64,000 bases of DNA from Bradyrhizobium sp. 186 (GTDB taxonomy: Bacteria > Pseudomonadota > Alphaproteobacteria > Rhizobiales > Xanthobacteraceae): contig NZ_CP082164.1 of the NCBI RefSeq assembly GCF_023101685.1, positions 2,356,001 through 2,420,000 on the forward strand. The letters run 5' to 3'. A model generated the notes under the pieces. The model saw nothing but the letters and a program-made list of their open reading frames with translations, was not told the origin of the DNA and searched no databases. The first letter of the stretch is position 1. Each line of letters begins with the position of its first letter. Of this stretch, positions 12,384 through 54,504 are shown one piece after another. The position numbers were made by a program, and so were the translations under genes.

Positions 12384-12397
12384 TTGATGGATGTCAA
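12384..12397. promoter_or_regulatory. Crp/Fnr-type box (TTGAT-GGAT-GTCAA)
   Basis: The site is one of the TTGA-N6-TCAA palindromes of the EPS locus and the one closest to the classical FNR half-site TTGAT on one side. It lies 50 bp upstream of the minus-strand ORF at 12046-12333. Binding by the regulator at 36621-37292 is inferred. Confidence 0.5.
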
Positions 12398-12534
12398 AAC
12401 CGACTCGGTGACAAATTGTCGCCCGCGAGGTGCGCGTCTTCCTATCAGCCGGGACTATCACCTCATCTCGAAGGGATACCTTCCGACCTGTCAAGTGACT
12501 TCGGTTCCCCATGGTGATCCGCGGGGGATTACGT

Positions 12535-12774
12535 CTAGTCCTCGATCTCGGCCGCAATATCCATCGCCTTGAGGTTCCAGCTCCACGAGAGGATCAAAAG
12601 CAAAATGACCGGGCAGGCGGTCAAAACTATTGCTTTCAAATGCAGCTCCCGCATGGACTGAAAGAAAAATGGCGCGAACATCATCGTTATCGCAACGATC
12701 GCAGTCCCGGCGCTCAGATTGCTAAAGAACCTTGCTCGGATTCTCCGAATCTCGTTGTTGGCCGCCTTCCCCAT
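12535..12774 (-). CDS. Small two-helix membrane protein
   Basis: A basic N terminus (MGKAANNEIRRIRARF) precedes two hydrophobic stretches, roughly residues 20-38 (SAGTAIVAITMMFAPFFF) and 48-65 (AIVLTACPVILLLILSW), with a short acidic tail. Two inner-membrane helices with a cytoplasmic N terminus fit this pattern. No family is recognised. ATG 12774 is the start. It stands alone between galE and the initiating transferase on the same strand, and its role is unknown. Confidence 0.6.
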   Translation of the reverse strand: MGKAANNEIRRIRARFFSNLSAGTAIVAITMMFAPFFFQSMRELHLKAIVLTACPVILLLILSWSWNLKAMDIAAEIED

Positions 12775-13132
12775 GATCCGCCTCTGTAAGCTATCTGCGT
12801 GCTCTTACTTCCCTAAGCTGGCGGCGCCATAACATTCGCCGGGATCCGCTCACGAGCCAAATAAATGTTGTGGCCCCGCCTTTAGGCTTGGCAAAAGCCG
12901 AACATGGCCTGCGCGCCACTAGCGCGCATTTCGCCTAGAGTCATCCTTATCCGAGGGTCATGGGCGCGCAAGCCCAGCCCTCGGCGAGATAGTTACAACC
13001 CACGCTTCTAAAATGAGCTTGATGCTGCCGTTGCGGCTTGATTGTCCTTCACTGCCACGGTTCAGCAGCGAAAGCTTCTTCTACCCGCCAGCACAACGCC
13101 ATCGCGAAATGAACACCTGTGGAATCGCGATC
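12775..13132. other. 358-bp gap without recognised genes
   Basis: This lies between the 3' end of the polyprenyl-phosphate transferase gene and the start of the small membrane protein gene. I see no reading frame, box or clear terminator in it. Confidence 0.4.
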
Positions 13133-14572
13133 TCAGTAAGCATCTAGGCTCGAAAGCACAATCGCTGTACGCATTAAAATGCGAAGATCCAGCCAGATGC
13201 TCCAATTGGTAACATACCAGACGTCGTATTCGACGCGCTTTTTCATCAAGTCGATGGTTGGTGTTTCACCACGGAAGCCGTTGACTTGGGCCCAGCCAGT
13301 TAGGCCAGGCTTCACGTGGTGGCGATAAGCGTAGTTACTGATCATCTGATTGTAGTAGTTGTCGTGCGCAAGCGCGTGCGGGCGCGGGCCAACTAACGAC
13401 ATTTCTCCGCGCAGGACATTCCAGAGTTGAGGCAATTCATCGATGCTCGTCCTGCGCAAGAGACGCCCGATCCTGGTAACTCTCGCATCCCGTTTGCTTG
13501 CCTGCCTAATCTCGGGGCCATTATCCGAAACCGTCATGCTGCGAAATTTCCAGATATCGAACGGCGTGCCGTTGAAACCGCGTCGTGTTTGACGAAAAAT
13601 GACGCTGCCCGGGGAGTCCAGCTTGATCAGAATCGCTATTATGATCAGTAGCGGGCCCATGCACAACAGCCCTAGAGAGGCCAAGCTGACATCGAGGCCG
13701 CGTTTCAGGGCACGTTCGGCGATTGAAAGAGGGGGCCGCTGGATTTCGATCGCCATCGTGCCGCTGAAGGGCACGAAAGGCCGTGACACGAGGTCCGCGA
13801 TCGCAAAATCAGGCAGCAAGCGAACGGCATTTGGTACCTGGCGCAACCGTTGGCTCAGCTTTTGTAATGTTGGAAGTTCGTTCCAGTCGAAAGCGAGGAG
13901 AAATTCATCTGCTTCCGCCGCACGAGACCCTCGAACGATCTGGAGAACATCCCGGTCCCACGCTGCATCGTCGTGCTGCAACGTCAAATTCAGCACGACG
14001 TGATGCACGACCTCAAAACCGTTCTTGCGCAAATCCTTGAAACGGCTGGAGGTGAAATCGAGTGGTCTTGGGCTGAGCAACACGACCCGCCGCTTGAAGG
14101 AGTGGCCCTTGGCAAAGGATGAAGTCAAGACGAGGCGCCAGACCGCGCGGTGTGCGCCCAGGCCAATGAGGCCCATTACCGCGAACAAAATGATGGTGAA
14201 GCGGGATAGAACGGCCGTTGATTTCAACAGGAATGCAGCAACCGCCAGAATTGTCAGTGACAAGACCCAAACAAGGAGGATCTTGCGCGATTGCCAGCTC
14301 GCATTTAGCAGATTGTGACGGTCGTAGCCGCCTTGAACGAAAGCAATCGTGACAAATAGCATGGCCACGATCAAGCCGGCGCCCACTGAAAGCTCCTGGT
14401 CGGCCGGAATTCCCATGAGTTCACGATGAGCGAGGTTAGCGCAGATGTAGCTGAGCAGAACCAGCAGGAAATCGCCTGCCATGATGACGATTTGAAACGG
14501 TCTTTGCAGCGAAGGGCTACGACCGGTGACTGTAGAAGATAAATGCTTGGAACCGTATGTGGCTGAGGACAT
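13133..14572 (-). CDS. Polyprenyl-phosphate sugar phosphotransferase initiating EPS synthesis (WcaJ/GumD type)
   Basis: Four or five hydrophobic segments fill the first ~140 residues, a middle soluble region follows, and a further membrane segment (LASLGLLCMGPLLIIIAIL) precedes the catalytic domain. That domain has the bacterial sugar-transferase motifs: IFRQTRRGFNGTPFDIWKFR, RIGRLLRRTSIDELPQLWNV, LRGEMSLVGPRP and YRHHVKPGLTGWAQVNG. Members transfer a hexose-1-phosphate from a UDP-sugar to undecaprenyl phosphate at the inner membrane, the first step of repeat-unit assembly. A Crp/Fnr-type box lies 112 bp upstream at 14684-14697. Length (479) and architecture match the GumD/WcaJ group rather than the short ExoY type. 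Confidence 0.92.
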   Translation of the reverse strand: MSSATYGSKHLSSTVTGRSPSLQRPFQIVIMAGDFLLVLLSYICANLAHRELMGIPADQELSVGAGLIVAMLFVTIAFVQGGYDRHNLLNASWQSRKILLVWVLSLTILAVAAFLLKSTAVLSRFTIILFAVMGLIGLGAHRAVWRLVLTSSFAKGHSFKRRVVLLSPRPLDFTSSRFKDLRKNGFEVVHHVVLNLTLQHDDAAWDRDVLQIVRGSRAAEADEFLLAFDWNELPTLQKLSQRLRQVPNAVRLLPDFAIADLVSRPFVPFSGTMAIEIQRPPLSIAERALKRGLDVSLASLGLLCMGPLLIIIAILIKLDSPGSVIFRQTRRGFNGTPFDIWKFRSMTVSDNGPEIRQASKRDARVTRIGRLLRRTSIDELPQLWNVLRGEMSLVGPRPHALAHDNYYNQMISNYAYRHHVKPGLTGWAQVNGFRGETPTIDLMKKRVEYDVWYVTNWSIWLDLRILMRTAIVLSSLDAY

Positions 14573-14683: not shown

Positions 14684-14697
14684 TTGACGAATCTCAA
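14684..14697. promoter_or_regulatory. Crp/Fnr-type box (TTGAC-GAAT-CTCAA) in gap 14573-15006
   Basis: The palindrome lies 112 bp upstream of the initiating transferase start at 14572, in a 434-bp gap that otherwise holds no gene I can support. Small plus-strand frames in the gap are Arg-rich and look random. Regulation by the Crp/Fnr protein at 36621-37292 is inferred. Confidence 0.55.
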
Positions 14698-15006: not shown

Positions 15007-15786
15007 CTAGTCTGCTGACAGTTCGACCCAGTTGCTGTTGCCAGCCCCTCGATTGTTAACGCCACTATGCGGCGAATCCGGGGCTCGCCACCAGTCGGCT
15101 CCAATGTTGGCGACAACCTTCATGTTCGGATCCGACGTCTTCATGTCCATCTGCATGTACACTGCATCCACGCTTCCGGCAGCGAAGCTGCCCCGTCTCA
15201 CCATCCACATCAGGTCGTTGCGGCCAGGCGGAGGACCGCCGACAAGGGTGCCTCCATCGGCTTGCACCTCGACCTTCATTTGGATGGCCAGATTCTTGGG
15301 AGCCATAGCGTCAAAATGGGCTCCAACGATCTCGTTTTCATTCTGGTCTTGCACGAGGGCCCATTCCTTTGTGGCGCGGAGGCGTACATACGTCTTTCCA
15401 TTTGCCACGAGGATCTTTCCGTCCGAATTGGCGGGTTGGGGCGCGCCAAATTCTGGAAAGACCGAAGCTAGTCCTGTGACGGCCGTGAAGTCCGAAGGGG
15501 GGCCACCGTCATCAGGTTTGGAGGTGCCGTTGCACCATGATGACGTTTTGGGAGCGCCGGCGGGAAATGCCTCGCTGTAACCGGGAGTATTCTGCTCGAT
15601 GACGTTCAACGAGAGTCCGGCCGCGACGGCTCCGCTTGACGAAACGGCGCCTTCTGGAGTGGCGACAAAAAACGCAGCCAATCCGATTGGCAAGAGCCAA
15701 GTCTGGAGCCGCCGAAGGGTGCGGACCGCACATCCAGGTGTTGTGAGCAGCAAGTGCATAGCGGAAAAATGATGAGCGTCAGACAT
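15007..15786 (-). CDS. Exported single-domain protein of the locus-specific paralog family (paralog 1)
   Basis: The N terminus has a signal-peptide-like stretch: basic (RTLRRLQTW), then LLPIGLAAFFVATPEGAV, with an Ala-rich possible cleavage region after it. The mature part is one domain that I cannot name. It is shared with the proteins at 17227-18258 and 26172-28379: IEQNTPGYSEAFPAG, ANGKTYVRL with WALVQDQ, GSVDAVYMQMDMKTSDPN, NIGADWWR and NSNWVEL recur in all three. It ends right after this domain. ATG 15786 is used; M at 15759 is possible. A Crp/Fnr-type box lies 65 bp upstream. An extracellular or periplasmic role in EPS binding or handling is inferred from context only. Confidence 0.75.
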   Translation of the reverse strand: MSDAHHFSAMHLLLTTPGCAVRTLRRLQTWLLPIGLAAFFVATPEGAVSSSGAVAAGLSLNVIEQNTPGYSEAFPAGAPKTSSWCNGTSKPDDGGPPSDFTAVTGLASVFPEFGAPQPANSDGKILVANGKTYVRLRATKEWALVQDQNENEIVGAHFDAMAPKNLAIQMKVEVQADGGTLVGGPPPGRNDLMWMVRRGSFAAGSVDAVYMQMDMKTSDPNMKVVANIGADWWRAPDSPHSGVNNRGAGNSNWVELSAD

Positions 15787-15850: not shown

Positions 15851-15864
15851 TTGACGAACATCAA
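15851..15864. promoter_or_regulatory. Crp/Fnr-type box (TTGAC-GAAC-ATCAA)
   Basis: The palindrome lies 65 bp upstream of paralog 1 (start 15786) and points the inferred regulon at this gene. The rest of the 259-bp gap to the acyltransferase stop at 16046 shows nothing else. Confidence 0.55.
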
Positions 15865-18295: not shown

Positions 18296-19516
18296 TCACT
18301 CGGCTGGAGACCATTTCGGCGACGTGAACCGGCCCGCATAGGAGAAGAACAGCGTCATCGACGTAAAATTGTCGATCAGGTTCTCGGACAAAAAATAGAT
18401 GAGAAGCACGGTGTACATGGTTTTCGCCGCCCGCTCCTTCAGCGAAAACATTATGCTGAACACGAAAACGACAAAGAGCACGCAGTTCAACAGTCCGTAT
18501 TCCGCCAGCACGCGCAGGTAATCGTTGTGCGGCGGCAGCGGCAACACGGTCAAGACGCCGGTCTGACTTGCACCGTAACCGAACAATATTCCGCCGAGCC
18601 CTAGCGACGAATAAATCTGCCATATGTTCGTCCAGTGGGTGATGCGGAAGAACGCGGACATGTCCGTCGTACCCGTCAAATCGATCAACTGCTTGGTTGA
18701 CATTCGCGCGATGGTGCTCGGGTCGAGGCTCCAGATAAGCGCTATTGCGCTCAGACCCGTTATCAGTCGATCCAGCGCGCCAAGCGCGTAGGCGGCGAGG
18801 CTGGCTATTGCCAACAAGAAGAGCGCGACGAATACCTGTGGTCTCAACGGGAAGAAAGACCAGAGACCAATGGCGACGATGGTTGCCAATGCGGGGCCAA
18901 CTCGGTTCATGATCGCAGCATTTACGAACTGCGCTATCAGGACCTTGTTTCCGAACCAGGGAGAAACGGCAAAGAATAGAGCCGAAAAGTAAAGCGCTGC
19001 GGTGTTTGTGTTCGGAAAATAGGAGAACACGTCAGGATATTCGATGCCGGTATAGACTTTCGTCTGGCCGACCACCTTGAAAAGTAGTGGCAGAGCCGCG
19101 AGTGCGTAGATGCACCGCTTCTCGGATCGGTGCAACCGCTCCGGCGTAGTGCGGCCTGCGACGTAGAATGAATAGATGGATAGGAGCTTCAAGCCGTCCG
19201 ATAGCTCGAAAGCGCCAAAATTCACCAGATAGCTCGTACCTGTGAAGATACAGGCGAGCATCAGCAAGATCTTGTAAAAGGCACTGCCCTCTCTCGTTAC
19301 CAGTACGTGGTAGGCGGACCATGAAATAAGCAGCAGGCTTGTCGAGTTGCTCAGGACGTTGAATACACTCGATCCGGTGAGGTGGTAGAGAAACGTCAAG
19401 CAGTTCAGGAACACGAGGCCGAGGCAGGTTACCACGAAGAACCGGCCGTGGACGGCCATCGAGGCGGAAGCGCGGTGTGATGTCTCTCTTCCCAGAGCCA
19501 GATCGTTCACAACCAA
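18296..19516 (-). CDS. Wzy-like O-antigen ligase/polymerase family membrane protein
   Basis: The protein has roughly ten to eleven hydrophobic helices and a large loop, followed by PPHNDYLRVLAEYGLLNC. That is the conserved HN-containing region of the O-antigen ligase/polymerase family. Members polymerise lipid-linked repeat units on the outer face of the inner membrane. Length (406) is typical. It starts the three-gene operon with paralog 2 and the acyltransferase. Its start at 19516 shares a divergent promoter region with the Wzz-like gene, with a Crp/Fnr-type box at 19629-19642 between them. Confidence 0.88.
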   Translation of the reverse strand: MVVNDLALGRETSHRASASMAVHGRFFVVTCLGLVFLNCLTFLYHLTGSSVFNVLSNSTSLLLISWSAYHVLVTREGSAFYKILLMLACIFTGTSYLVNFGAFELSDGLKLLSIYSFYVAGRTTPERLHRSEKRCIYALAALPLLFKVVGQTKVYTGIEYPDVFSYFPNTNTAALYFSALFFAVSPWFGNKVLIAQFVNAAIMNRVGPALATIVAIGLWSFFPLRPQVFVALFLLAIASLAAYALGALDRLITGLSAIALIWSLDPSTIARMSTKQLIDLTGTTDMSAFFRITHWTNIWQIYSSLGLGGILFGYGASQTGVLTVLPLPPHNDYLRVLAEYGLLNCVLFVVFVFSIMFSLKERAAKTMYTVLLIYFLSENLIDNFTSMTLFFSYAGRFTSPKWSPAE

Positions 19517-19628: not shown

Positions 19629-19642
19629 TTGACGGTCGTCAA
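19629..19642. promoter_or_regulatory. Crp/Fnr-type box (TTGAC-GGTC-GTCAA) in divergent promoter
   Basis: The palindrome lies between the divergent polymerase gene (start 19516, 112 bp away) and the Wzz-like gene (start 19687 or 19699, about 45-57 bp away). It could control both. The spacer and flank (GGTC, then ATATCGG) resemble the box at 47932-47945. Confidence 0.6.
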
Positions 19643-19686: not shown

Positions 19687-21264
19687 GTGGAGTCGTCGGT
19701 GGAACGTAGAAGCACAATATTCGCCGGCGCCTTTGGTCTGTTATGGCGGCGACAGTGGATCATTTACCTGGCCGTTTTGCTGACGTCCGGGGTAGCCTTT
19801 CTTTACTACGCGACGGTCGGGGACCGGTTCGAGGCGTATGTGCTGTTGCGCGCCGGGCAGGGGATCAAGGAACGTTCCGGCAACGCGACCTCGCCTTTCG
19901 GGGAGGGCGTTGACCTTCAAAGCCGGATGGAATCACTGTCGCGCATCGCCAAGATCGACCAGGTCATTTTGGAAGCCGCGAAGAACGTTGGCTACGACAG
20001 GCTATCATCTGATTCTAACCCGACGCTCCTTGCCAGGTTTATGGCATGGGGGAAGGAAATCGATCTTCGGGATGTGTTCGCCAAGGAGCCGGCAGAGCCG
20101 CGGCCGCAGCCACAGGCGCGAGCGGAAGCAGAGGAAGACATAGAGCGTAACCAGTCTGGAATTCTCAGTCTGCGAGACCGCATCAATGCCAAGCAGGAGG
20201 GCCGATCCGACCTGTTGAGAATAACGTTCCGTCACAAGGATCCGTCGATCGCCGCTAGTTATCTGAACGAGCTCGCGAACGCATTGGTAACCGTTCAAAG
20301 TCTCGATGTTCAAATGCCGGGCGCGCAGGAGTTCTTTCAGCAGCAAACGAAGCGCCTCGAGGAAGAGGCAGAGGTCGCGGCTGCCGATCTGAAGCGTTTC
20401 TCCGTTGAGGCATCGATTTATGCCGTCGACGATCAGCGGCAACTCCTGCTCAAGCGCGCCAGTGATTTGGCCGCGCTGATCTCCACGACGCGGGGTGCAA
20501 TCGAGGACAAGAAAGGGCAGAAACTTGCGATCGCGGACCAGTTGGCCGTCCTGCGGCCGGTCACGCAGTCCAAGACCGTGAGCCGAATGGTGAGCACGCT
20601 GGCAGGGCCGGACTCTCGAAGGCCCCTCGATTCCTCCGCTAAGCCGCCGGACCAGTTTGAGGAGCAGCCTCCCTTGCTTCTGATCAAGGTCTACCAGGAC
20701 AACATGTCGACGCTGATGAAGATAAATGCCGACCTCAACGGGCAGATAGAGCTGCTGAATCAATTGGGTGCCGAGCTCGAGAAAGTGAGTAAGGAACTTG
20801 CATCGCTCTCTGCAAAAGAGGCCGAGTACGGAAGGTTGAAGCGCGTTCTCACGACCGCGTCATCAGCTGCGGCGCAGTATGCAGCCCGCATTCAGGAGGA
20901 GCAGATAAGCACCGAGGTCGCCAAAAAGAGCCAGCTTTCCAGCCTCAGAGTAGTGCAGAAAGCGATAACTCCAACGGCGCCTGTATTTCCTCAAGTCTCT
21001 CAACTCGTAGCCTTGGCGCTTGCCGGCGGCGTTCTGCTCGGTCTTGGAGGCGTCTTCGGGCCGGAACTCGCGAGAAGCACAATGCATGCCCACCCAAGTC
21101 TCGGAGGGGCCGTCGGGGATGACGATCCGGTAAGGAATCTGCTGTTGGTGGCCCGGCAAAGAACGGAAGGACTGAAGGACCTTCATTCTACCGGACGGGC
21201 AGACCTCAAAGAAGAAGCGGTTGTCGGCCCTGTTCCTCGATCGACCAGGATGCCTCCGCTCTAG
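19687..21264 (+). CDS. Wzz/GumC-like polysaccharide chain-length and export protein
   Basis: One membrane helix near the N terminus (WIIYLAVLLTSGVAFLYYATV) is followed by a Wzz-like periplasmic region and a long helical coiled-coil section (about residues 205-410, many Glu, Lys and Gln). A second helix (LVALALAGGVLLGLGGVF) lies near residue 440. Such proteins set chain length and couple polymerisation to export. There is no C-terminal tyrosine-kinase domain: the tail after the second helix is short and has no Walker motif. GTG 19687 is used; GTG 19699, six bases after a GGAG, is equally plausible. No outer-membrane Wza-type partner is visible in the window. Confidence 0.88.
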   Translation: MESSVERRSTIFAGAFGLLWRRQWIIYLAVLLTSGVAFLYYATVGDRFEAYVLLRAGQGIKERSGNATSPFGEGVDLQSRMESLSRIAKIDQVILEAAKNVGYDRLSSDSNPTLLARFMAWGKEIDLRDVFAKEPAEPRPQPQARAEAEEDIERNQSGILSLRDRINAKQEGRSDLLRITFRHKDPSIAASYLNELANALVTVQSLDVQMPGAQEFFQQQTKRLEEEAEVAAADLKRFSVEASIYAVDDQRQLLLKRASDLAALISTTRGAIEDKKGQKLAIADQLAVLRPVTQSKTVSRMVSTLAGPDSRRPLDSSAKPPDQFEEQPPLLLIKVYQDNMSTLMKINADLNGQIELLNQLGAELEKVSKELASLSAKEAEYGRLKRVLTTASSAAAQYAARIQEEQISTEVAKKSQLSSLRVVQKAITPTAPVFPQVSQLVALALAGGVLLGLGGVFGPELARSTMHAHPSLGGAVGDDDPVRNLLLVARQRTEGLKDLHSTGRADLKEEAVVGPVPRSTRMPPL

Positions 21265-23124: not shown

Positions 23125-24411
23125 TTAGGCCCCCACCCGACCGGAGTCGACGTTCGCGAGTGAGAAACCGAACAGGAGCCGGTAGCGCCAAAACGCAATG
23201 ACGAGAGACGTGAACAGGATTGCTGCGCCAGCCCCGTGGAGACCGGCGAACGGCAGGAGTGACATCTGCGCAATCACCGAGACACATACCGATGCCACGT
23301 TTGTGACCGTCGTCATCCGATCGCGATGTGCCGTAAACAGGCTGAGGGCTCCGAAATCCGCCATGTAGCGTACGGCGAGCCCTGCAACGATCAGCCAGAA
23401 GGCCGACCACTGGACAGCGAGAGCGGGCTGATCCAGCCACGGCAAAAGGATCTGGAAAGCAAATCCGACCGCAATGCTAAGCGCCACGGTGGCGAGCGCT
23501 GTCGTCTGCATGAAGCGCCAGGCCAGCAGGCAGTGCGCGGACGAGCCTCCGGTCCGATATGCGCTGATCAGCAGAGGGCGCTGCTTTTGCTGGAGGACCA
23601 ATGCGAGAAAGGTGGTTGCGGAACTCCCGACCGTCCAGAAGAGGAAGTAGATGCCGGCGACCTTCAAGCCCAGGAACAATGTGATGAGATAGCGGTCGAT
23701 GTACTGGCTCGCAACAAAGCCGAGATCGCTTACCAGCATGAGGAAGGACTTCCGGATCGCTCCGGTAATCACCGAAGGTCTAAACGGGCGGGAAAAGGAT
23801 GCTCGCCATGGCCAGGACCAGCTCAGGAAAACGAAAAGCCCTATCGAGACGACGCTTCCCGCCAGCCAAAAACCGAACAGGTACGGAAGCGCCCCAAAGC
23901 TCGGGTCCCAAATAGCGAGCGGAACATAGACGAGAATCCAGGCCGCACCGCGAATGAAGCCGATGGCGTTTGCCGAGAAGTGGTGCTGCAGGCTTGAAAG
24001 AAGATAGAAGATGTCGTTACCGACATGTTCGAACAGGATCACGGCAACGATCAGGACCCATAAAGCGGAAGTTCCAAGGACGATGGTAACCAGAATGGCG
24101 ATCGTCAAGAGAACCATGTAGGCCGAGATCACGAAAGACCAGTAATGGCGCATGCTGTCGATCATTTCGCCTGCGGGAGCGGTGACCGCGTCGCGCATCA
24201 GCAGATGGTTCATTCCAAGATTGACGACGATCGGAACGGCCGCAATGGCGCCGGCGGCAAGTCCATACAGACCCAGTGACGACAGATCGAGATAACGGGC
24301 AATGAACAGGGCGAGGCCGAATTTGCAGCCCATGACGCTGGCCCGCATGGCCATGACTACAAGATCGACGAGGAGCCGCTTGTGTGAAGTGGGCACGGCT
24401 GCGGCGCTCAT
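23125..24411 (-). CDS. Wzx-like polysaccharide flippase (PST/MATE-type)
   Basis: About twelve hydrophobic helices span the 428 residues. The N-terminal GCKFGLALFIARYLDLSSLGLYGL is typical of polysaccharide-transport flippases (gain of a lipid-linked oligosaccharide across the inner membrane). ATG 24411 is the start. It converges with the FkbM gene (54 bp between stops) and lies downstream of the GT2 gene at 24689 on the same strand, with 277 bp between them. It is the only flippase candidate in the window, so it probably moves the repeat unit polymerised by the Wzy-like protein. Confidence 0.87.
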   Translation of the reverse strand: MSAAAVPTSHKRLLVDLVVMAMRASVMGCKFGLALFIARYLDLSSLGLYGLAAGAIAAVPIVVNLGMNHLLMRDAVTAPAGEMIDSMRHYWSFVISAYMVLLTIAILVTIVLGTSALWVLIVAVILFEHVGNDIFYLLSSLQHHFSANAIGFIRGAAWILVYVPLAIWDPSFGALPYLFGFWLAGSVVSIGLFVFLSWSWPWRASFSRPFRPSVITGAIRKSFLMLVSDLGFVASQYIDRYLITLFLGLKVAGIYFLFWTVGSSATTFLALVLQQKQRPLLISAYRTGGSSAHCLLAWRFMQTTALATVALSIAVGFAFQILLPWLDQPALAVQWSAFWLIVAGLAVRYMADFGALSLFTAHRDRMTTVTNVASVCVSVIAQMSLLPFAGLHGAGAAILFTSLVIAFWRYRLLFGFSLANVDSGRVGA

Positions 24412-43506: not shown

Positions 43507-45519
43507 TTATCTCTCGCGTAGACTCTCGTGCTTGTACCTCATGATCGGTGAGAGGACGTAGCTGATGATGCTACGTGAGCCGGATTTGACTTCAACCGTT
43601 GCAGCCATGCCTGGAGAAAGGCTGACACGTCTGTTGTCGATGTCCATGTGATTGCGGTCGAGCGATACCCGCGCGGCGTACACAAGCTCCTGACCCTTCG
43701 GTTCGCTGCTGGTTGTCTCGGCACCCGACGACCTTGTGTTGCCGTTCTCTGGCGGTTTGTTGCGGGGAATGGCGTCCTGGGAGATGCTGACAATCGTGCC
43801 ATGCAGCAGTCCGTAGCGGGTGAAATTGAAAGTGTCGATCTTGATGGCGGCTTCCTGGCCTGCTTCGATGAAGCCGATGTCCTGGTTCGATATCATGGCT
43901 TCGACCTCGAGATTACTGTCGGTCGGAACAATCAGCATAAGCTGTTGCGCCGGCGTGACGACACCGCCGACTGTATGGACAGCGAGCTGCTGCACGACAC
44001 CGTCGATGGGAGCTGTCAGGCTCTGCAAACCCGTGTGTCGCTCCGCCTTGATGACGTCCTGGGTTAACCCGGCAGCCTTCTGTTCCGCTTTGGCGAGTTC
44101 CTCGAACAAGGTACGCTCATACTCGGCGATTGCCTTGTTGCGGGTCTCCATGAGAACGCCAATGGCGCCGTCCGCCTCGCCGAAACGGCTTTGCTGAACA
44201 AGTATCTCCTGGCGTTGGCCGACCAGTTCCTGGAGTTCAGTCAAGTACAACAGCTTCGAGCCCAGTTCTTTCTGATACAGCTGCTCACGTATTTCAACGC
44301 GCTGCTGAAGTGGACCGATGGTTGCCTTCAGCTTCTCAATTGACGCTTTGGAGGTCGCTCGCTCTGCTTCTTTCTGCGCGATTTGACGATCAATTGTGGC
44401 GAGCTTCGCATTCTGCTCGGTGGTCTGGCTGATAAGAAAGCGACGGTGCATCTCGACCAGCGCAGGTGACGCGCCGGGCGGGGCTTCGAATGTTGAGGCG
44501 GGATCGGTCTTGTTTGAGAGCAAGGACTTCAAACGCGCGACGTCGAGCTGTGCGCTCATCAGATCGCCCTTCAAGTGGCTCAGTTCGGCCGCGGAAACGG
44601 TAGCATCCAGATCGATCAGGCGTTCGCCGGCTGCGACAATCTGCCCGTCGCGGACGTAGATCGCGCGGACAACGCTGGTTTCGAAGGGTTGAATGGTCTT
44701 GGTCCGGCCGCTTGGAATGATCTTGCCCGGAGCAATGGCAACAATGTCGACCGTTCCAATGCAGGCCCAGGTCAATGCGACAGCGAGCCCGGCCATAATG
44801 CTGACGACGATGGCGCGTCCCACCGGAGACGGAGGCGTCTCGACGATCTCTAGTGCTGCGGGCAGAAAGGCGAGCTCGTGGCTCGGGCGGGCCTCATCGG
44901 TGGGCCCGAGCCTTGCGACCGCGCGACCGAGCTTGCGGGCGTGATCTGCGAAGACAATGACGGCATTCCCAGAGCCGCTCTGCACCGGCCCCGCGGACCG
45001 CCGCTGTGCCGCTAAAGGCGCTCGGCCGGAAAACAGGTCGGTCAGTCGAGACGTCATTACCAGTGAACGCGCCTTCAAATCCTGCAATAGGCCCAGGCAA
45101 TTTTGAGAGAGGCGCAGGAGCCCAGCGGCGATGGCGCGGCGTCGGATAATCAAAATCAGCCGTCCATCCCAGATAGCTTCGAGTTCAGATCTGGAGATGA
45201 TAGCCGGCCTTTCGGCGCCGGGAGCAAGGATCACCGCTTCGTTGCCGTGCACTTTTCCAAGCAACAGGAAGCTTTGGCTGCGAAGCGGAACAATTCCCGG
45301 CAGAGGATGCTCTGACAGCTCATCCCAATCGGTCAGTGCACAACGTGCAGAAAGGTTGACCTCTCTTGCATAAGCGAGCATTTCCGGAACGCCGATCGGA
45401 GCGTAGCCTGACCGTCGGCGAATGTGATCGAGATTGCTCTCAATACCGCGCAGGCGTAGGAGGACGTCCAGGACAAAAAGCCCGGGGTCTTCGATAGCCT
45501 GTGTCACGGTCCGCTCCAT
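43507..45519 (-). CDS. Type I secretion membrane fusion protein (HlyD family) with extra N-terminal C39-like domain
   Basis: Residues 234-256 form the single membrane helix. After it come the HlyD features: lipoyl-like halves (IAPGKIIPSGRTKTIQPFET, LTAPIDGVVQQLAVHTVGGV), a long coiled coil (about 330-510) and the C-terminal VSLSPGMAATVEVKSG. Unusually, residues 1-130 form a domain homologous to the N-terminal C39-peptidase-like domain of the exporter at 45605-47746. Shared blocks include D-x-G-L near residue 11, SFLLLGK, and SRSELEAIWDGRLILIIRR versus SRMEIEAAWDGSVILMTRR. The catalytic Cys position is Pro (DPG). HlyD proteins normally start with a short cytoplasmic tail. It lies 85 bp after the exporter gene. 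No outer-membrane partner is seen. Confidence 0.88.
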   Translation of the reverse strand: MERTVTQAIEDPGLFVLDVLLRLRGIESNLDHIRRRSGYAPIGVPEMLAYAREVNLSARCALTDWDELSEHPLPGIVPLRSQSFLLLGKVHGNEAVILAPGAERPAIISRSELEAIWDGRLILIIRRRAIAAGLLRLSQNCLGLLQDLKARSLVMTSRLTDLFSGRAPLAAQRRSAGPVQSGSGNAVIVFADHARKLGRAVARLGPTDEARPSHELAFLPAALEIVETPPSPVGRAIVVSIMAGLAVALTWACIGTVDIVAIAPGKIIPSGRTKTIQPFETSVVRAIYVRDGQIVAAGERLIDLDATVSAAELSHLKGDLMSAQLDVARLKSLLSNKTDPASTFEAPPGASPALVEMHRRFLISQTTEQNAKLATIDRQIAQKEAERATSKASIEKLKATIGPLQQRVEIREQLYQKELGSKLLYLTELQELVGQRQEILVQQSRFGEADGAIGVLMETRNKAIAEYERTLFEELAKAEQKAAGLTQDVIKAERHTGLQSLTAPIDGVVQQLAVHTVGGVVTPAQQLMLIVPTDSNLEVEAMISNQDIGFIEAGQEAAIKIDTFNFTRYGLLHGTIVSISQDAIPRNKPPENGNTRSSGAETTSSEPKGQELVYAARVSLDRNHMDIDNRRVSLSPGMAATVEVKSGSRSIISYVLSPIMRYKHESLRER

Positions 45520-45604: not shown

Positions 45605-47746
45605 CTATGGAAGCTCATGGAAACCTGTCTGCAGGCGATAGAGCTTGGAATACCGCCCGCCGCGATTGATCAGTTCTTGATGGGAGCCGTCCTCGATCAG
45701 GCGGCCATCCTCAATCGTGATGATGCGGTCGGCCATTCGCAGGGCCGACAACCGATGCGCAATGATCAGTACAGTCCGGCCCTGTGAGATCTTCGCCATA
45801 TTCTGTTGAACAATGTGCTCGCTCTCATAGTCGAGTGCGCTGGTGGCCTCGTCAAGAATCAGGATTCGAGGATCGGTTACAAGTGCGCGCGCGATTGCAA
45901 TGCGCTGACGCTGTCCACCTGACAGACTATTCCCCCGTTCCCCTACGGTGGTGTCATAGCCCTGCGGTAGCTGCAGAATAAAGTTATGTGCACCAGCCAT
46001 TGTCGCCGCCTCGATCACGCGTTCCGTCGATGTCGCGGGATCGGCGAACGCAATATTATCCCTGATCGAGCAGTTGAAAAGTATGCTGTCCTGAAGAACC
46101 ACGCCAATCTGGCGACGCAACCAGGCGGGATCCACCTGCGCAACGTCGATGCCGTCGACCAGGACTCGGCCGCGCTCAGGTATGTAGAGTCGTTGCACCA
46201 GCTTGGCCAACGTGCTCTTTCCCGACCCCGAGGCGCCTACTATTCCAATGACCTGGTTCGCGGGAACATGGAAGTGCACATCCCGCAGGATCTCGGGTCC
46301 GTCAATGCGGTAGCGAAAGGTCACGTGCTCGAAAGTGATATGGCCTCGGATCGCAGCCAGTGCCATCTTGCCGGGATTGTAGACCGGCTCGGTCTCCGTA
46401 TTCAGAATATCGCCAAGGCGTGCGATCGAAAGCCTGGCCTGATGAAAGTCTTGCCAAGTCTGAGCCAATCGAAGCACTGGAGCGCTTACGCGGCCGGCGA
46501 GCAAATTGAAAGCAACAAGTTCGCCAACGGTAAGATCGCCACTTATGACAAGTCTCGCGCCGAAATAGAGGATAGCCGCGCTGACCAGTTTGCTGACAAA
46601 TTGCACCGATTGACTAGCCACGTTGGCCAGGCTGATGACTCGAAAACTCGCGGCGACATATCCGGCGAGCTGCTGCTCCCATCGGCGCTGCATCTGGGGC
46701 TCGACGGCCATTGCCTTGAGTGTCTCGATTCCAGTCACACTTTCCACAAGAAAGGCCTGATTTTCCGCGCCACGCTGAAACTTCTCATCGAGCCGTCGCC
46801 GAAACAGCGGCGTGGCGGCGGCGGAAATTCCGACATAGATTGGAAGCGAGAAGAGAACGATCCATGTCAGCGCCGGTGAGTAGAAGAACAGCATCGCGAT
46901 GAAGATGGTCGCAAAGAACAAATCGATGATCAGCGTCAAGGCCGAGCTGGTCAGGAAATTGCGGATATTCTCCAGTTCCCGCACCCTCGCAACGGAGTCG
47001 CCAACGCGCCGTGCCTGAAAATAGCCAATTGGCAGAGCCAATAGGTGACGAAACAGCCGGGCGCCCAGTTCCACGTCGATCCGATTTGTGGTGTGGGAAA
47101 ACAGATAGGTGCGAAGGATGCCAAGTATCGTTTCAAACAACGCGATTGCGACAAGGCCAACGGCGAGCACGTCCAGAGTGCCCATGCTCTGGTGAACCAG
47201 GACCTTGTCGATTACGACCTGAAAGAAGAGGGGCGATACAAGCGCAAAAAGCTGCAGGCAGAATGATGCAGCCAGAACTTCGGTCAGCAGCCGCCGGTAC
47301 TTGTGAATTGCGCCGAGAAACCAGGTGATGTCGAAACGGCGGGCGAGATCGGAGAGGGACGCGCGGCGCGTCATCAGGATCACCGATCCGTCCCAGGCGG
47401 CCTCGATCTCCATTCGCGACATTATGACCGGCTGAGGGCGACCAGGCTCGAGAGCGATGACCTTGTCCTCACTGGCCTTTCCGAAGATCAGGAACTTGTC
47501 CTCGCGCAGGATGGCGAGTGCCGGCATGGGTAGACCGGAAAGCCTAGACCAATTCGTTCTGACGACGCGTGCCCTCAGCCCCAGCTCCTTGGCGCAGCGG
47601 AGCATCTCGGCGATCCTGACAACTCCTCCGAACTGATGACGGATCCGTTCAGGATCAACTGCGACCCCGTGAAATCGGAGCATCATGACCAACGCGATCA
47701 ATCCTTGATCGGGGATTGCGCCAGTTGGCTCAAGTTGCTCGTGCAT
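45605..47746 (-). CDS. Type I secretion ABC transporter (HlyB type) with degenerate C39 domain
   Basis: Domains are in the usual order: residues 1-130 are a C39-like domain lacking the catalytic Cys (DQG for DCG); a six-helix ABC membrane domain follows (FCLQLFALVSPLFFQVVID, LTLIIDLFFATIFIAMLFF); then an ATPase with Walker A GIVGASGSGKSTLAK, signature NSLSGGQRQRIAIARAL, Walker B ILILDEATSAL and the H-loop IIAHRLS. Such transporters use the C39-like domain to dock unfolded substrates and export them in one step. I chose ATG 47746 with GGAG six bases upstream. Length (713) is normal. Likely cargo is paralog 3, inferred. A Crp/Fnr-type box lies 185 bp upstream. Confidence 0.93.
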   Translation of the reverse strand: MHEQLEPTGAIPDQGLIALVMMLRFHGVAVDPERIRHQFGGVVRIAEMLRCAKELGLRARVVRTNWSRLSGLPMPALAILREDKFLIFGKASEDKVIALEPGRPQPVIMSRMEIEAAWDGSVILMTRRASLSDLARRFDITWFLGAIHKYRRLLTEVLAASFCLQLFALVSPLFFQVVIDKVLVHQSMGTLDVLAVGLVAIALFETILGILRTYLFSHTTNRIDVELGARLFRHLLALPIGYFQARRVGDSVARVRELENIRNFLTSSALTLIIDLFFATIFIAMLFFYSPALTWIVLFSLPIYVGISAAATPLFRRRLDEKFQRGAENQAFLVESVTGIETLKAMAVEPQMQRRWEQQLAGYVAASFRVISLANVASQSVQFVSKLVSAAILYFGARLVISGDLTVGELVAFNLLAGRVSAPVLRLAQTWQDFHQARLSIARLGDILNTETEPVYNPGKMALAAIRGHITFEHVTFRYRIDGPEILRDVHFHVPANQVIGIVGASGSGKSTLAKLVQRLYIPERGRVLVDGIDVAQVDPAWLRRQIGVVLQDSILFNCSIRDNIAFADPATSTERVIEAATMAGAHNFILQLPQGYDTTVGERGNSLSGGQRQRIAIARALVTDPRILILDEATSALDYESEHIVQQNMAKISQGRTVLIIAHRLSALRMADRIITIEDGRLIEDGSHQELINRGGRYSKLYRLQTGFHELP

Positions 47747-47931
47747 TGGCACTCCGCGCCGCATCACGCAGTTTGGCCCGGTAATGCCTGTGGCAGTGAA
47801 TATCGACCATGATGGTATGTCGCCCGATGCTGCGCGTGGCTCAGGACGCAACCCGATATCGGCCGATTAGGGAAGAAATCCGGCGAGGCAGCAGGCCATC
47901 AACCCATTTTAGGAGCCGCTCCGAAAGCGAG

Positions 47932-47945
47932 TTGACGGCTGTCAA
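47932..47945. promoter_or_regulatory. Crp/Fnr-type box (TTGAC-GGCT-GTCAA) in divergent promoter
   Basis: The palindrome lies between the secretion operon (start 47746) and the glycosyltransferase gene (start 48095), in a 348-bp gap with no other feature. It would place protein secretion and sugar assembly under the same control. Confidence 0.6.
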
Positions 47946-48094
47946 TATCGGGGGGAGGCGGTCGCATATCATCCCTCAGATGGTTGGAATTGTAACGAGA
48001 ACAGCCGTGCGCCGCCTGGCCGAACGCCAGGCAACAGGAATTGGTGTTGGCATCGGATCTCGGCTTGTTCCGACCTCTCGGTCAGGAACGCGAA

Positions 48095-49456
48095 ATGACT
48101 GAATCTTCGTTCGAGTTCGGTGAGGAACCAGTAGCGACGTTTTCGACCGAGCGTTCGAGAGCGCGTCCTGAACGAGATGCTCAACACACCGGACGGGATC
48201 AGCTCAACGATCCGGATCGGCGCAACCTGAAAGTCCTGTTCGCGAACAAATTCTTTTTCCGCAACGGCGGCTCCGAGGTCGTCATGTTCGACGAGATGGA
48301 GCTGATGCGGAGCCGAAACGCCGATGTCATTGAATTCTCCATGAATGATGACCGAAATGCCCCATCGCGCTTTCAGCCATACTTCGTATCACAAAAATCA
48401 TATCGGGCTCCATCGCGGAGCGACAAGCTGAAGTCTGCACTTTCCCTTATTCACTCCCCGGAAGCCGTTTCGAAGATTACTGATCTCATTCGGGACGAGA
48501 GACCGAATATCCTCCATTGCCACAACATCTACCATCAGCTCACCCCATCCATCATCTCCGCCGCGGCAAGATTGGGGGTTCCTGTCGTTCTCACGCTTCA
48601 TGACTACAAACCGGTCTGTCCTGTCTACACGCGGCTCAGCAACGGAAAGGTATGCACGAGATGCGCAGACGGTGGCTTCGAGGCCATTCTCACTCGACGC
48701 TGCGCGGATGGGGCATTGGGCCGCAGCGCCTTACTCTGGGCGGAGGCGCGCTATCACGCGTTGGCAGGAAGCTACCATCGGGTCGCCAAATTCGTTGCGC
48801 CGAGCAAATTCATGTACGAGGCCATCGTCCGCCGGTTTGGTACAGAGAAGGTGGTTCATATTCCGAACGGAATAGACGCGTCGCGTATCGAGGTGTCTAC
48901 CGACGACGAGGGCTACGTGTTGTACTTTGGGCGCTTGTCGCCTGAAAAGGGCGTCGAAACCCTTCTCCAAGCCCATGCGGCGGATCAAGGAGCCTGGCGG
49001 TTGGTGATCGCCGGCACAGGTCCGCTGCTGGAGGAGCTTCAGCGGAAGTATCCGATGGCGGAGTTCAAGGGGCACCTCACGGGCATAGACCTGGAACGAA
49101 CGATCAAGCGAGCGGCGTTGATAGCTGTCCCCTCCGGATGGCACGAGAACAGTCCTCTCTCAATTCTTGAAGCGATGGCACACGGGAAGCCGATCGTCGC
49201 GTCGCGCATCGGCGGCATTCCCGAACTCGTGAGAGACGAATCGACGGGTCTGTTGTTTGAGCCCGGCGACGTTTCTCAGCTGTCGGAAAGTATCAGAAAG
49301 CTTCTTGCCGATCGCAATCGTCGAGACGCACTCGGCTGCAGTGCGCGAAGGATCGTCGAGGTTGAGTATTCACTTCAGGCGCATGGAGCCGCGTTGTTCT
49401 CGCTGTATGAGAGCCTGATTGGAGCGGCCGGCTTACACAAGAAAGTTGGATCATAA
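48095..49456 (+). CDS. Family 4 glycosyltransferase
   Basis: The GT-B fold is visible: KVLFANKFFFRNGGSEVVMF at the N-terminal nucleotide-free domain, LTLHDYKPVCPVYTRL, and the C-terminal donor domain with FVAPSKFM, HIPNGIDASRI, VLYFGRLSPEKGVETLLQA and the E-x7-E region PSGWHENSPLSILEAMAHGKPIVA. GT4 enzymes are retaining transferases that use nucleotide sugars. I chose ATG 48095, 54 bases inside the open frame, preceded by AGGAACG. The next gene starts one base after its stop, so the two are tightly coupled. Sugar specificity is unknown. Confidence 0.9.
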   Translation: MTESSFEFGEEPVATFSTERSRARPERDAQHTGRDQLNDPDRRNLKVLFANKFFFRNGGSEVVMFDEMELMRSRNADVIEFSMNDDRNAPSRFQPYFVSQKSYRAPSRSDKLKSALSLIHSPEAVSKITDLIRDERPNILHCHNIYHQLTPSIISAAARLGVPVVLTLHDYKPVCPVYTRLSNGKVCTRCADGGFEAILTRRCADGALGRSALLWAEARYHALAGSYHRVAKFVAPSKFMYEAIVRRFGTEKVVHIPNGIDASRIEVSTDDEGYVLYFGRLSPEKGVETLLQAHAADQGAWRLVIAGTGPLLEELQRKYPMAEFKGHLTGIDLERTIKRAALIAVPSGWHENSPLSILEAMAHGKPIVASRIGGIPELVRDESTGLLFEPGDVSQLSESIRKLLADRNRRDALGCSARRIVEVEYSLQAHGAALFSLYESLIGAAGLHKKVGS

Positions 49457-49457
49457 A

Positions 49458-50591
49458 ATGGACCTCACTGTCATTTCAACGTTCCGCTGCAATTCGAAGT
49501 GCCAGATGTGTTACATCTGGCAAAACCCGACCGAGCCGAAGGAAGAGGTGTCGCTCGACACGCTGTCAAAACTTCCTGCCGGATTTGACAACCTGAATGT
49601 GTCAGGCGGAGAACCGACGCTTCGGAAAGACCTCTCGGAAGTGATCGACCTTCTCTATCCCAAGGCAAGGGTGACGGAGATATCGTCGAACGGCCTTCAC
49701 ACTGAGCGCCTGGTTCCAATCATCAAGAAATACCCGAATATCAAGGTGCGGTTTTCGCTGGAGGGCGATGAGGAAACGAACGACAGGATTCGCGGCGAGA
49801 AGGACGGTTATAGCACCAAGATCGCAGGACTGCGTATGCTTCGTGAGGCGGGTGGCACCGACCTCGGTTTTGCGATGGTCATTCAGGATGAGAACGTCGA
49901 TCAGCTCGTCAATGTCTACGAATTTGCCCGGACGGAAGGCTTCGAACTGGCGACCTCCACGCTCCACAACGCGTGGCAGTTCTACAAGAACGACAACTAC
50001 TTCTATGACCGGATGGCGGTCGCGCGAAAGGTCGAAGGACTGATTTCGGCGATGTTGCGCAGTCCGAAGCCAAAGAACTGGTTTCGGGCTTACCTGAATC
50101 TCGGTCTGATCGAGAAGATCCTTGGTCACGATCGGCTGATACCCTGCAGCGCAGGCAAGGATTTCGCGTTCATCGATCCTTGGTCGGACGTATGGGCTTG
50201 CAACGTCCGGTCCGATCTTCCCATGGGCAATCTTGCGCGCCAGTCATGGGACGAGATCATGAACAGCGAGGTCGCGCAGCAGACGCGGAAGAAGGTCGCT
50301 GGCTGCGGTCAGAATTGCTGGATGGTGACAACCGCGCGGACCGCCATGCGGTCCAACCTGGTCCCTCAGTTGCCGAAATCCGAGCCTCTGCTCTGGGTCC
50401 TCAAGAACAAGCTGAAGGTATCGATCGGCAAGAGCATCTGCTTTGACAGCTACATCAATTATTCCGACGTGAGGCCGTCCCCGCACGTCGAACGAACGTC
50501 CTTCCTGAACAAGAACGTCAAGGCCCGGTTGGTCAAAGGGCGCGTTACCCCCGACGAACATTACCCGTTGCGAACTTTCATGAACAATTAA
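49458..50591 (+). CDS. Radical SAM protein with SPASM-like C-terminal cysteines
   Basis: The iron-sulfur motif CNSKCQMCYIW (CxxxCxxC) lies within the first 20 residues, followed by LNVSGGEPTLRKDLSEV and FSLEGDEETNDRIRG, the usual radical SAM barrel segments. C-terminal cysteines (IPCSAGKDF, VWACNVRSD, VAGCGQNCWM) resemble a SPASM or twitch domain that binds an additional cluster. Members cut SAM to a radical and modify sugars, peptides or cofactors. ATG 49458 follows the GT4 stop by one base and the next GT4 starts 19 bp after this gene, so it is embedded in a glycosyltransferase operon. A sugar epimerisation, oxidation or peptide-tailoring role is inferred; no precursor peptide is evident. 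Confidence 0.88.
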   Translation: MDLTVISTFRCNSKCQMCYIWQNPTEPKEEVSLDTLSKLPAGFDNLNVSGGEPTLRKDLSEVIDLLYPKARVTEISSNGLHTERLVPIIKKYPNIKVRFSLEGDEETNDRIRGEKDGYSTKIAGLRMLREAGGTDLGFAMVIQDENVDQLVNVYEFARTEGFELATSTLHNAWQFYKNDNYFYDRMAVARKVEGLISAMLRSPKPKNWFRAYLNLGLIEKILGHDRLIPCSAGKDFAFIDPWSDVWACNVRSDLPMGNLARQSWDEIMNSEVAQQTRKKVAGCGQNCWMVTTARTAMRSNLVPQLPKSEPLLWVLKNKLKVSIGKSICFDSYINYSDVRPSPHVERTSFLNKNVKARLVKGRVTPDEHYPLRTFMNN

Positions 50592-53044: not shown

Positions 53045-53121
53045 AGGGTCCGCGCGGTGAGGACCAACGATGTCCGCGCACGGGAGCAGGTCAGCAATTA
53101 GATTGCACCGGCGAACTGAGC

Positions 53122-53358
53122 TTATCCCTCGGTTGGAGGAGTGCCAATTCGCAGTTGACTGGCGGTCATCTTGCCAGAGACTGACACAAGCTCGTAGCCT
53201 ACCCGTTGCCCCTCGAGCAACGTGGAAAGGCCAGCTTGTTCGACCGCCGACATATGAACGAATATGTCCTTGCCTCCGCCGTCGGGTCTAATGAACCCGT
53301 AACCCTTAAACTTGTTAAACCAAACTACAAATCCGGTCGGCACAGTACCTCCAGGCAA
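53122..53358 (-). CDS. Cold-shock domain protein (CspA family)
   Basis: A single cold-shock domain is seen with RNP1 as KFKGYGFIRPD and RNP2 as DIFVHMSAV, after the conserved VVWFN. Such proteins bind single-stranded RNA and DNA and unwind transcripts. Length (78) is slightly longer than usual owing to a short tail (QLRIGTPPTEG). Start is TTG 53358 with AAGGA upstream, or GTG 53343 with GGAGG upstream. It is transcribed alone. Confidence 0.9.
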   Translation of the reverse strand: MPGGTVPTGFVVWFNKFKGYGFIRPDGGGKDIFVHMSAVEQAGLSTLLEGQRVGYELVSVSGKMTASQLRIGTPPTEG

Positions 53359-54343
53359 TTTCTTGGTCCTTCCGGAGCGAACGCCGTGATGAGGAGCTGA
53401 AATCGGGCGCAGATACGGGGTTGTTGAACTTGAGAACCCGGTCTCTTGCAGTTAATCCGCATCGCTCTATCTAGGTTCCTTCTCCTCTCCCTGGGCAGTT
53501 GCGCAGACAATCCAGCTTGATTGCCGACAGCATCTGTGCCCGGAATCGCGCTGCACAAGTACACAATCAGCGCTGGATGTTGCTTAAACGACAAGGCGCC
53601 TCGCAAACAGGCGTTCCATCTGGTGGAGATTGGATCTCAAGATGAGTCTCTCGCACCTAGCGTCGGCCGGATCGTCTCGTTGTTTGCGGGTGCAAATGTT
53701 GGCTCGCCGTACCAGATGCTCACGGCCAGCACCTAATACGGTAGTATGTTCAACACGGTAATACGTTCAATGACACCCTCCACATGGCGTGCAGGTATCA
53801 AAAGGTCGTCTTGGACATTGCTTATCAGACTGAGTGCCAGACGACGCTCGGGAAGTGGGGAGCTATCAAAGCTCTAACCGGCGATGTTTGCGGCGTCCAA
53901 CGTATGGACGGGCAGGCGAGTTGTTCGCCGAACGGATCAGAAAGGCGGGCGGTTGGTTGGTCTCGTTGGCGGACGCCGATTTGGCTTGAATCTCAGATAC
54001 TCCGCACGGCGTCTGCGGGAGATAACCTCACGCGTCCCATACCCGGCTGCGAACGAGATCGAAACTATTGCGAGAAGTAGCAGGAGACCGAGCACGTCTT
54101 ATCTCCAACCGAGTGTTTGTTAGGGGCGCCGTCAAAAGCCGATCTTCGGGCGCAAAACCGCGCTCGCGTCGCGCCGACCGGCGACGGTGGCGCCGATGTG
54201 GCTTGGAATAAGAGAACGGCACATAGTGGCAGTTGGCTGAGCATACGAGTTGTTCGGGGGAGCCAGGTCCTGAGCCGACAGTGCCGATCGGAAGACCATT
54301 AGGCGCGTGACCAGTTCAGCATTGCGAAGAGCTTGATCCTGCA
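53359..54343. other. 985-bp stretch without a supported gene
   Basis: Frames here are short and biased to Arg and Ser, with no recognisable domain. A 17-bp imperfect direct repeat (ACGGTAGTATGTTCAAC and ACGGTAATACGTTCAAT) lies near 53738-53772. The region may be decayed DNA. Confidence 0.4.
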
Positions 54344-54504
54344 CGCTGCTCCGCTCCCATCGTCTCCGAGCGCAGGGAGAGGGCCCACTGACGCTACGCT
54401 ACGCTGACAAACCTGAATAGCGTGAGTTTTCACGCCCACATCAATGAAATTTACGCAAGCCTAGCGATGGCCAATTTGACGAAGGTCAAGTTAAAGAGAG
54501 CGAC
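54344..54504. repeat. Diverged 160-bp direct repeat, copy A
   Basis: This stretch aligns with 55087-55244 over its whole length with scattered changes. Shared blocks are CTGCTCCGCTCCCATCG, ACGCTGACAAA, TGAATAGCGT and GGTCAAGTT followed by AGAG and CGAC. It ends with a Crp/Fnr-type box. It lies just downstream of the 3' end of the small DNA-binding gene. Confidence 0.6.
54476..54489. promoter_or_regulatory. Crp/Fnr-type box (TTGAC-GAAG-GTCAA) inside repeat copy A
   Basis: The palindrome matches the EPS-locus motif but no gene start follows it in a sensible position; the nearest gene runs towards it. Copy B carries a one-mismatch version (CTGAC-CACG-GTCAA) at 55216-55229. It may belong to the repeat rather than to a gene. 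Confidence 0.4.

Follow-up and report, generated by a model that had tools for sequence, protein, structure and literature searches.

The polysaccharide island of Bradyrhizobium sp. 186 raises the question of which regulator reads the palindromes that stand in front of its genes, and to what effect. We analyzed a stretch of 64,000 nucleotides (contig NZ_CP082164.1, positions 2,356,001 to 2,420,000 of the forward strand; hereafter the window, in whose numbering coordinates are given), which contains a 42-kb polysaccharide block with boxed promoters and, within it, the gene for a 223-aa regulator of the Crp/Fnr family (36621–37292, plus strand). A first-pass annotation had proposed a self-contained Crp/Fnr-type regulon based on TTGA-N6-TCAA boxes. 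From our analysis, the regulon is very probably real, with the local Crp/Fnr protein as its activator. To the fuller reading, according to which this protein would be a FixK-like, locus-dedicated activator that switches on the island via the boxes, we assign a probability of roughly 80%.

Palindromic boxes are concentrated in the polysaccharide locus

The window contains 13 exact TTGA-N6-TCAA palindromes, spanning 12384 to 54476. In 100 dinucleotide shuffles of the same sequence the mean was 0.92 sites and the maximum four, which agrees with the earlier estimate of less than one chance site per 64 kb. The first-pass annotation had listed twelve palindromes; eleven of these coordinates are exact, the one given as 25973 is really 25972, and a box at 24583 had been overlooked. 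On our own Pfam-supported gene map all 13 boxes are intergenic, as had been claimed, and lie within the polysaccharide locus, and the catabolic block at 1–10 kb has indeed no exact box. With 150 exact sites in 10.77 Mb of genome, the density is about 203 per Mb in the window versus about 12.8 per Mb outside, a difference of about 16-fold, so that the proposed comparison of densities inside and outside the locus favors the regulon. Allowing for alternative start codons, 11 boxes lie about 44–210 bp before called or Pfam-supported starts (50–210 bp in the earlier account). Altogether 12 boxes have an assigned target.

Boxes follow the regulator across genomes

An orthologue of the regulator (E 1e-25) was found in 8 of 248 genomes of the family including our own, and in 7 of 47 genera. 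From the seven other genomes we took 36–80 kb around the regulator gene. Each of these loci has 5–11 boxes (5–13 when the window is included), and the eight loci, of which G089 and G190 are close relatives, together have 69 boxes over 580 kb, and 62 of these lie outside called genes though 78–87% of the sequence is coding. A scan of named genomes yielded 17 regulator loci (13 labelled Bradyrhizobium, two Rhodopseudomonas, one Tardiphaga and one Methylobacterium). Four of them (L068, L069, L071, L073) coincide with G075, G089, G190 and G026, which leaves 13 new loci. All 17 have 2–6 boxes within 10 kb of the regulator. Moreover, a box is located closely upstream of a C-methyltransferase gene in 16 of the 17 named loci (exception L074) and in all eight family loci.

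As controls we used 17 loci, picked for good matches on long contigs among 67 genomes that have a match to the exporter of the island and lack the regulator. These contain 9 boxes in 800 kb, with at most three per locus. The most telling control is G123. It has six more genes in common with the locus (35–52% identity) but not the regulator, and its 60 kb are free of boxes. A 20-column matrix, trained on 45 boxes of the seven relatives that had been chosen by the exact outer motif, recovers 13 of 13 window boxes with scores of 15.2–26.6. Sites of at least 16 occur 10.69 times per 100 kb in regulator loci versus 0.12 times (one site) in controls; the former density includes the training loci, so that the window alone serves as held-out sequence.

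The eight regulator genomes have 40 copies of the strict site TTGACRNNYGTCAA, and 26 of these fall inside the fetched locus. The 14 copies outside the loci (about 0.28 per Mb) compare with 32 (about 0.22 per Mb) in 20 genomes without the regulator; in our own genome, only four of nine copies fall inside the window. Since boxes accompany the regulator in different genomes and mostly stay within its locus, the interpretation of the first-pass annotation is supported. Self-containment holds for our own genome as far as tested. In two relatives, small satellite sites probably exist before polysaccharide-like genes, to judge from a site of matrix score 27.2 before a weak glycosyltransferase match away from the locus (G075, contig C12) and one of 24.5 near homologues of locus proteins (G071, at 2.63 Mb).

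The highly scoring site TTGACAATTGTCAA at genome position 7048215 (matrix 24.9) recurs, once each, in 8 of 16 regulator-lacking genomes of the same genus. Because it is present where the regulator is absent, it is probably outside the regulon, and another conserved factor may use it. Further outside sites of at least 15 are those at 952191, 2236930, 8160611, 8871756 and 1738245 and one in a second box cluster described below.

Promoter geometry points to activation

When three orthologous promoters were compared over seven loci, the flanks proved no more alike than unrelated sequence (24–27% identity). All eight outer bases of the box are kept (100%), exact boxes having been chosen, and a downstream TA, which was not a selection criterion, is kept at 71–100%. 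This TA is found exactly 21 nt after the box on 31 of 79 gene-facing sides, compared with a mean of 1.9% at other offsets and with 3 of 31 sides that face no gene. In the window, every box with an assigned target except 19629 (11 of 12) has a TA at 19–22 nt on a gene-facing side; where only one side of a box faces a gene, TA is absent at this distance from the other. The combination box-N20-22-TANNNT occurs 19 times in the genome: eight times in the window, four times in the second cluster and seven times elsewhere.

If the TA 21 nt past the box belongs to the -10 element, the box centre falls near -41 and therefore in the position of a class II activator. The spacing thus fits a class II promoter, in which the box is centred near -41.5 and the -10 element follows about 21–22 nt after it. 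The same geometry bears on the idea that the Crp/Fnr protein is a repressor that silences the island until a signal releases it. TTGAC in the box is -35-like, and a dimer bound near the start could block transcription as on an operator. A TTGAC serving as -35 element, however, would need a -10 element about 7–11 nt past the box, where TA is found on 3, 4, 0, 1 and 1 of the 79 sides, and the TA 21 nt past the 14-bp box places its centre where an activator would sit. We therefore regard repression as unlikely.

The inner bases set the boxes apart from FixK2 sites

Derived from the 31 sides that have TA at 21, the extended site reads A-N-TTGACGR-YCGTCAA-N-T. The published FnrN/FixK consensus, as given in an excerpt of PMC4999443, is TTGANCNNGATCAANG, and the window boxes do not conform to it. 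At position 6 of the half-site, 24 of 26 window half-sites have G or A versus C or T in 18 of the 28 half-sites of 14 FixK2 boxes, and position +2 is occupied by T on 23 of the 31 gene-facing sides whose TA is at 21, in contrast to the G of the published consensus. The assignment of the boxes to the FNR/FixK site type thus holds for the outer half-sites but not for the inner bases and flanks, in which they depart from FixK2/FnrN boxes.

This difference has to be weighed against a second candidate, namely that another Crp/Fnr paralogue of the FixK2 or FnrN kind binds the boxes and places the island in the microoxic FixK network. The shared outer half-sites (PMC4999443, in part) would allow for this; the genome contains six more matching Crp/Fnr relatives, and some cross-recognition is likely. 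Yet the inner six matrix columns separate the groups: the 13 window boxes have a mean of +2.36 (lowest -0.4), 14 published FixK2 boxes a mean of -5.73 (highest -1.9), and the eight boxes of the second cluster a mean of -4.55 (highest -1.9), without overlap with the window set. In addition, five genomes of the same genus that have the exporter and no regulator (G138, G153, G196, G220, G235) show 0–1 boxes in 40–60 kb. Control by a paralogue is accordingly quite improbable.

The second cluster (C1:3296642-3307974 of the same genome) comprises eight TTGA-N6-TCAA boxes beside two further Crp/Fnr genes and genes of the CBS/BON, universal-stress and MlaE kinds. Its boxes have FixK2-like inner bases, and four of the eight show box-N20-22-TANNNT. 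Scored with all matrix columns, including the flanks, one of them reaches 18.3. Four regulator-lacking genomes (G196, G204, G064, G086) contain tandem pairs of TTGACA-N4-TGTCAA-type palindromes, 22–23 bp apart.

A LuxR-type response regulator is co-inherited with the Crp/Fnr gene

Upstream of the regulator gene lies the gene for a LuxR-type (NarL/FixJ family) response regulator (35252–36022, plus strand). The Pfam domain GerE is found above its cut-off, Response_reg scores 29.7 against a cut-off of 30.2, and by eye the receiver residues look kept. The protein reaches 106 bits with the NarL model (cut-off 250) and 25.8 bits with the FixJ model (cut-off 255). NarL-type proteins can bind inverted repeats, which makes this neighbor a third candidate for the box-binding protein. 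Its strongest matches (E 1e-49 or better) occur in exactly the same 8 of 248 genomes as the Crp/Fnr gene, and in Methylobacterium an orthologue (57%) lies on the contig of the regulator, about 14 kb away if the contig numbering agrees. Given this co-inheritance, co-occurrence alone cannot name the box binder. The site, however, is of the Crp/Fnr type, and it is the Crp/Fnr protein that has the E-x-x-C-R recognition helix; furthermore, three G075 regions with a paralogue of the LuxR-type gene and no Crp/Fnr gene have no box in 57 kb. That the response regulator itself reads the boxes is thus very unlikely.

At E 1e-20, weaker relatives of the LuxR-type protein are widespread (228 of 248 family genomes). 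Next after the strongest matches ranks a partial one (50%) in G029, a genome with no Crp/Fnr orthologue. LuxR-type paralogues or relatives (50–60%) apart from the Crp/Fnr gene were seen on contigs C16, C18 and C52 of G075 and on C97 of G029.

The LuxR-type gene is unboxed in the window; in G050 a box lies 110 bp upstream of it. The Crp/Fnr gene has no exact box in the window either, nor a matrix hit of at least 8.5 between 32936 and 39003, and for this reason its autoregulation is not supported here. Its promoter carries an imperfect palindrome (36506–36523, plus strand) with the consensus CTAGGCC-N4-GGCCTAG, from which the window copy deviates at 4 of 14 positions. With at most two mismatches in 14, this palindrome precedes the Crp/Fnr gene in 11 of 21 sequences (many of which are closely related), and with at most three mismatches it precedes the LuxR-type gene in none of 20. 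At the latter stringency there are 25 copies in the 800 kb of controls and 14 away from the Crp/Fnr gene in the eight regulator loci. As a candidate response-regulator site the palindrome is a lead only; the LuxR-type protein may be an upstream controller of the Crp/Fnr gene.

Weighing the activator model

Besides the -35-like TTGAC and the co-inherited response regulator, several observations count against a dedicated Crp/Fnr activator. Sixteen of the 17 control loci share little with the window beyond the exporter pair, and orthologous loci are not independent samples. As a hexamer the -10 element is poorly matched, with TANNNT at 21 on about 30% of sides; box 19629 has no TA and box 54476 no clear target. 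At a threshold of 14 the matrix also picks two other positions in the window, 6721 (14.1, inside a catabolic gene) and 55216 (14.0). Outside the window, the genome has 26 TTGAC-N4-RTCAA sites, of which 22 were scored; five of these reach at least 15, two of the five being intergenic. The matrix alone thus yields false positives. That the boxes are an artefact of chance or composition can practically be dismissed: the GC content of the locus (56–60% versus a mean of 61–62% in 32 samples of the genome) would raise AT-rich matches slightly, but the shuffles of the same sequence, control loci of 55–67% GC, the held-out matrix and the footprints all speak against it.

The Crp/Fnr protein resembles FixK2 and lacks the sensor motifs of FNR and CRP

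The protein combines a cNMP-binding-like sensor domain with a Crp-type helix-turn-helix, which bears out its earlier placement in the Crp/Fnr family. A GTG at 36612 is an alternative start, and the recognition helix reads E182-T-V-C185-R186. Among solved structures FixK2 is the best match by sequence and by fold; with the NCBIfam FixK equivalog, a model that by name is Caulobacter's, the protein scores 72.7 bits against a cut-off of 300. FNR and FnrN carry an N-terminal cysteine cluster for a 4Fe-4S centre. As the window protein has no cysteine before C101, iron-sulphur sensing of the FNR kind was rejected. Likewise, cAMP-binding CRP has a phosphate-binding cassette with Arg-Ser after a Gly-Glu motif. 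By eye, the cassette of the window protein contains G80-D81 and, in place of Arg-Ser, Q-Y-T-A, which led us to reject cAMP sensing; the score with the CRP equivalog is 19.3 bits (cut-off 266). Four cysteines (C101, C112, C118, C185) are invariant in 21 regulator sequences, and the last aligns with the serine of E-T-V-S-R in the 4i2o chain. Redox modulation via these cysteines is possible.

Box targets and gene content of the island

From left to right, box 12384–12397 faces a small ORF of 95 aa (12046–12333, minus strand) that begins 50 bp away and is 48% identical to a stretch of G025, itself boxed about 270 bp upstream; TA is at 21. The boxes 14684–14697 (TA at 22) and 15851–15864 (TA at 21) precede the minus-strand genes for a WcaJ-type undecaprenyl-phosphate glucose phosphotransferase (13133–14572) and an unknown protein (15007–15786). 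Box 19629–19642, with no TA at 18–25 on either side, is shared by the divergent genes for a wzy-like (18296–19516, minus strand) and a chain-length-like protein (19687–21264, plus strand). The overlooked box 24583–24596 (TA at 21) and box 25972–25985 (TA at 22) precede a flippase gene (23125–24411) and a glycosyltransferase gene (24689–25765), both on the minus strand. Box 29103–29116 (TA at 22) lies before the plus-strand gene 29204–31417, which encodes one 737-aa protein, an acyltransferase fused to an aldo/keto reductase.

As had been annotated, one divergent gap has a box per gene: 32750–32763 (TA at 21) for an acyltransferase (31490–32680, minus strand) and 32936–32949, with the -10-like TAGGGT at 21, for glucose-1-phosphate cytidylyltransferase (33001–33894, plus strand). 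Box 39003–39016 (TA at 19) precedes a class-III aminotransferase gene (37479–38990, minus strand; called start 38903), and box 40114–40127, with TAGCGT at 21, the C-methyltransferase gene (40173–41483, plus strand). The second shared box of a divergent gap, likewise already described, is 47932–47945, located between an HlyB-type exporter gene (45605–47851, minus strand) and a glycosyltransferase gene (48041–49456, plus strand), with TA at 20 and 21. Finally, box 54476–54489 scores 22.9 and has a -10-like TAAATT, with TA at 22 facing left, and no convincing gene within 1 kb. The nearest gene on the left encodes a cold-shock protein (53122–53358, minus strand) more than 1 kb off, and the ORF on the right (54585–55706, plus strand) has no Pfam match above cut-off and was not predicted by the gene caller. 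A small RNA or an unannotated short gene is a possible target.

By Pfam and NCBIfam, the locus encodes a WcaJ-type priming transferase, a flippase, glycosyl- and acyltransferases, glucose-1-phosphate cytidylyltransferase, sugar epimerases and the C-methyltransferase; the polymerase-like and chain-length-like proteins score just below the Pfam cut-offs. From its gene content the locus looks like a Wzx/Wzy-type system, and its product would be an exopolysaccharide and not another surface glycan. Next to these polysaccharide genes lie those for an HlyB/HlyD type I exporter and for an Ig-like-domain protein. The HlyD-type adaptor (43507–45519) has an N-terminal C39-peptidase-like domain, as does the paired HlyB-type exporter, and a radical SAM/SPASM protein (49419–50591), encoded between two glycosyltransferase genes, is the best-conserved protein of the island (79–88% identity in seven relatives). 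The C39-type exporter and the radical-SAM gene had raised the idea of a peptide product. Because the exporter pair passes the HlyB and HlyD type I cut-offs and fails the peptide-export ones, this idea is disfavored and a protein substrate is preferred, perhaps the Ig-like/DUF642 protein encoded at 26172–28448. Neither a tRNA nor an Rfam match at gathering thresholds turned up in the window, and RNA-level control and a tRNA-linked island were discarded.

The spread of the island is patchy. Orthologues of the regulator, 60–98% identical, are found in Bradyrhizobium, Rhodopseudomonas, Tardiphaga and Methylobacterium. At E 1e-25, none was present in 16 other genomes sampled from the same genus, and an order-wide sample had the regulator in 3 of 397 genomes, all three of the same family. 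Nine named loci (L059–L067) are close to the window regulator (87–98%), with 98% to two Bradyrhizobium records. No plasmid-borne relative was matched at this threshold in 72,556 plasmid records. The patchy spread together with the somewhat lower GC content of the locus suggests horizontal movement of the island.

Proposed mechanism

In the activator model, a Crp/Fnr dimer would bind A-N-TTGACGR-YCGTCAA-N-T centred about 41 bp before the transcription starts of nearly every island operon and recruit RNA polymerase in class II fashion. The sugar-nucleotide, transferase, flippase, polymerase and exporter operons of both strands would thereby be turned on together. Since both the Crp/Fnr and the LuxR-type gene are unboxed in the window, the input probably arrives by another route than the boxes, most likely through the response regulator acting on the Crp/Fnr promoter. 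Tentatively, one may envisage a portable two-tier switch, in which a NarL/FixJ-type response regulator, via a dedicated palindrome, activates a FixK-derived activator with a drifted box code, and by which a moving island would carry a private, insulated and redox-gated regulon into hosts with a FixK network. From a single gene, a single box and roughly a dozen operons, a complete on-switch of a mobile polysaccharide island can be predicted. To our knowledge, surface-polysaccharide regulators in Bradyrhizobium and its kin are poorly mapped. The case stands out from the ordinary in three respects taken together: the box code is private, the island is spread patchily, and a second regulator is inherited along with the first.

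Comparison with known systems

Among the matches listed from titles and abstract openings of open-access PMC articles, this regulator, its box and its regulon are undescribed. Crp/Fnr proteins have been tied to surface polysaccharides before. Bcam1349 (BerA) of Burkholderia cenocepacia binds the promoters of an exopolysaccharide cluster and raises transcription with c-di-GMP, according to an excerpt of PMC3584217. The likeness lies in the link to an exopolysaccharide gene cluster; Bcam1349, which answers to c-di-GMP, belongs to a different class of bacteria, and the excerpt notes no palindromic box set. Another c-di-GMP-responsive Crp/Fnr protein is Clp. Similarly, CRP/FNRKx of Komagataeibacter was studied with cellulose synthesis genes; it concerns the cellulose operon, and the portion of the article at hand notes no binding-site set (PMC4686702).

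The closest parallel is the FixLJ-FixK cascade of Bradyrhizobium. From excerpts of PMC9104804 and PMC4999443, FixK2 has a Crp/Fnr fold without the N-terminal cysteine cluster of FNR, TTGA-N6-TCAA outer half-sites, a partner response regulator of the same broad family and a redox cysteine, C183, near the DNA-binding part. In contrast, the window regulator falls below the NCBIfam FixK cut-off, its partner scores best as NarL and low as FixJ, its box differs in inner bases and flanks, and its targets form one polysaccharide island rather than respiration genes. Because the boxes of the two differ by their inner bases though both kinds of protein share one cell, the island would provide a natural case of related activators that stay insulated from each other.

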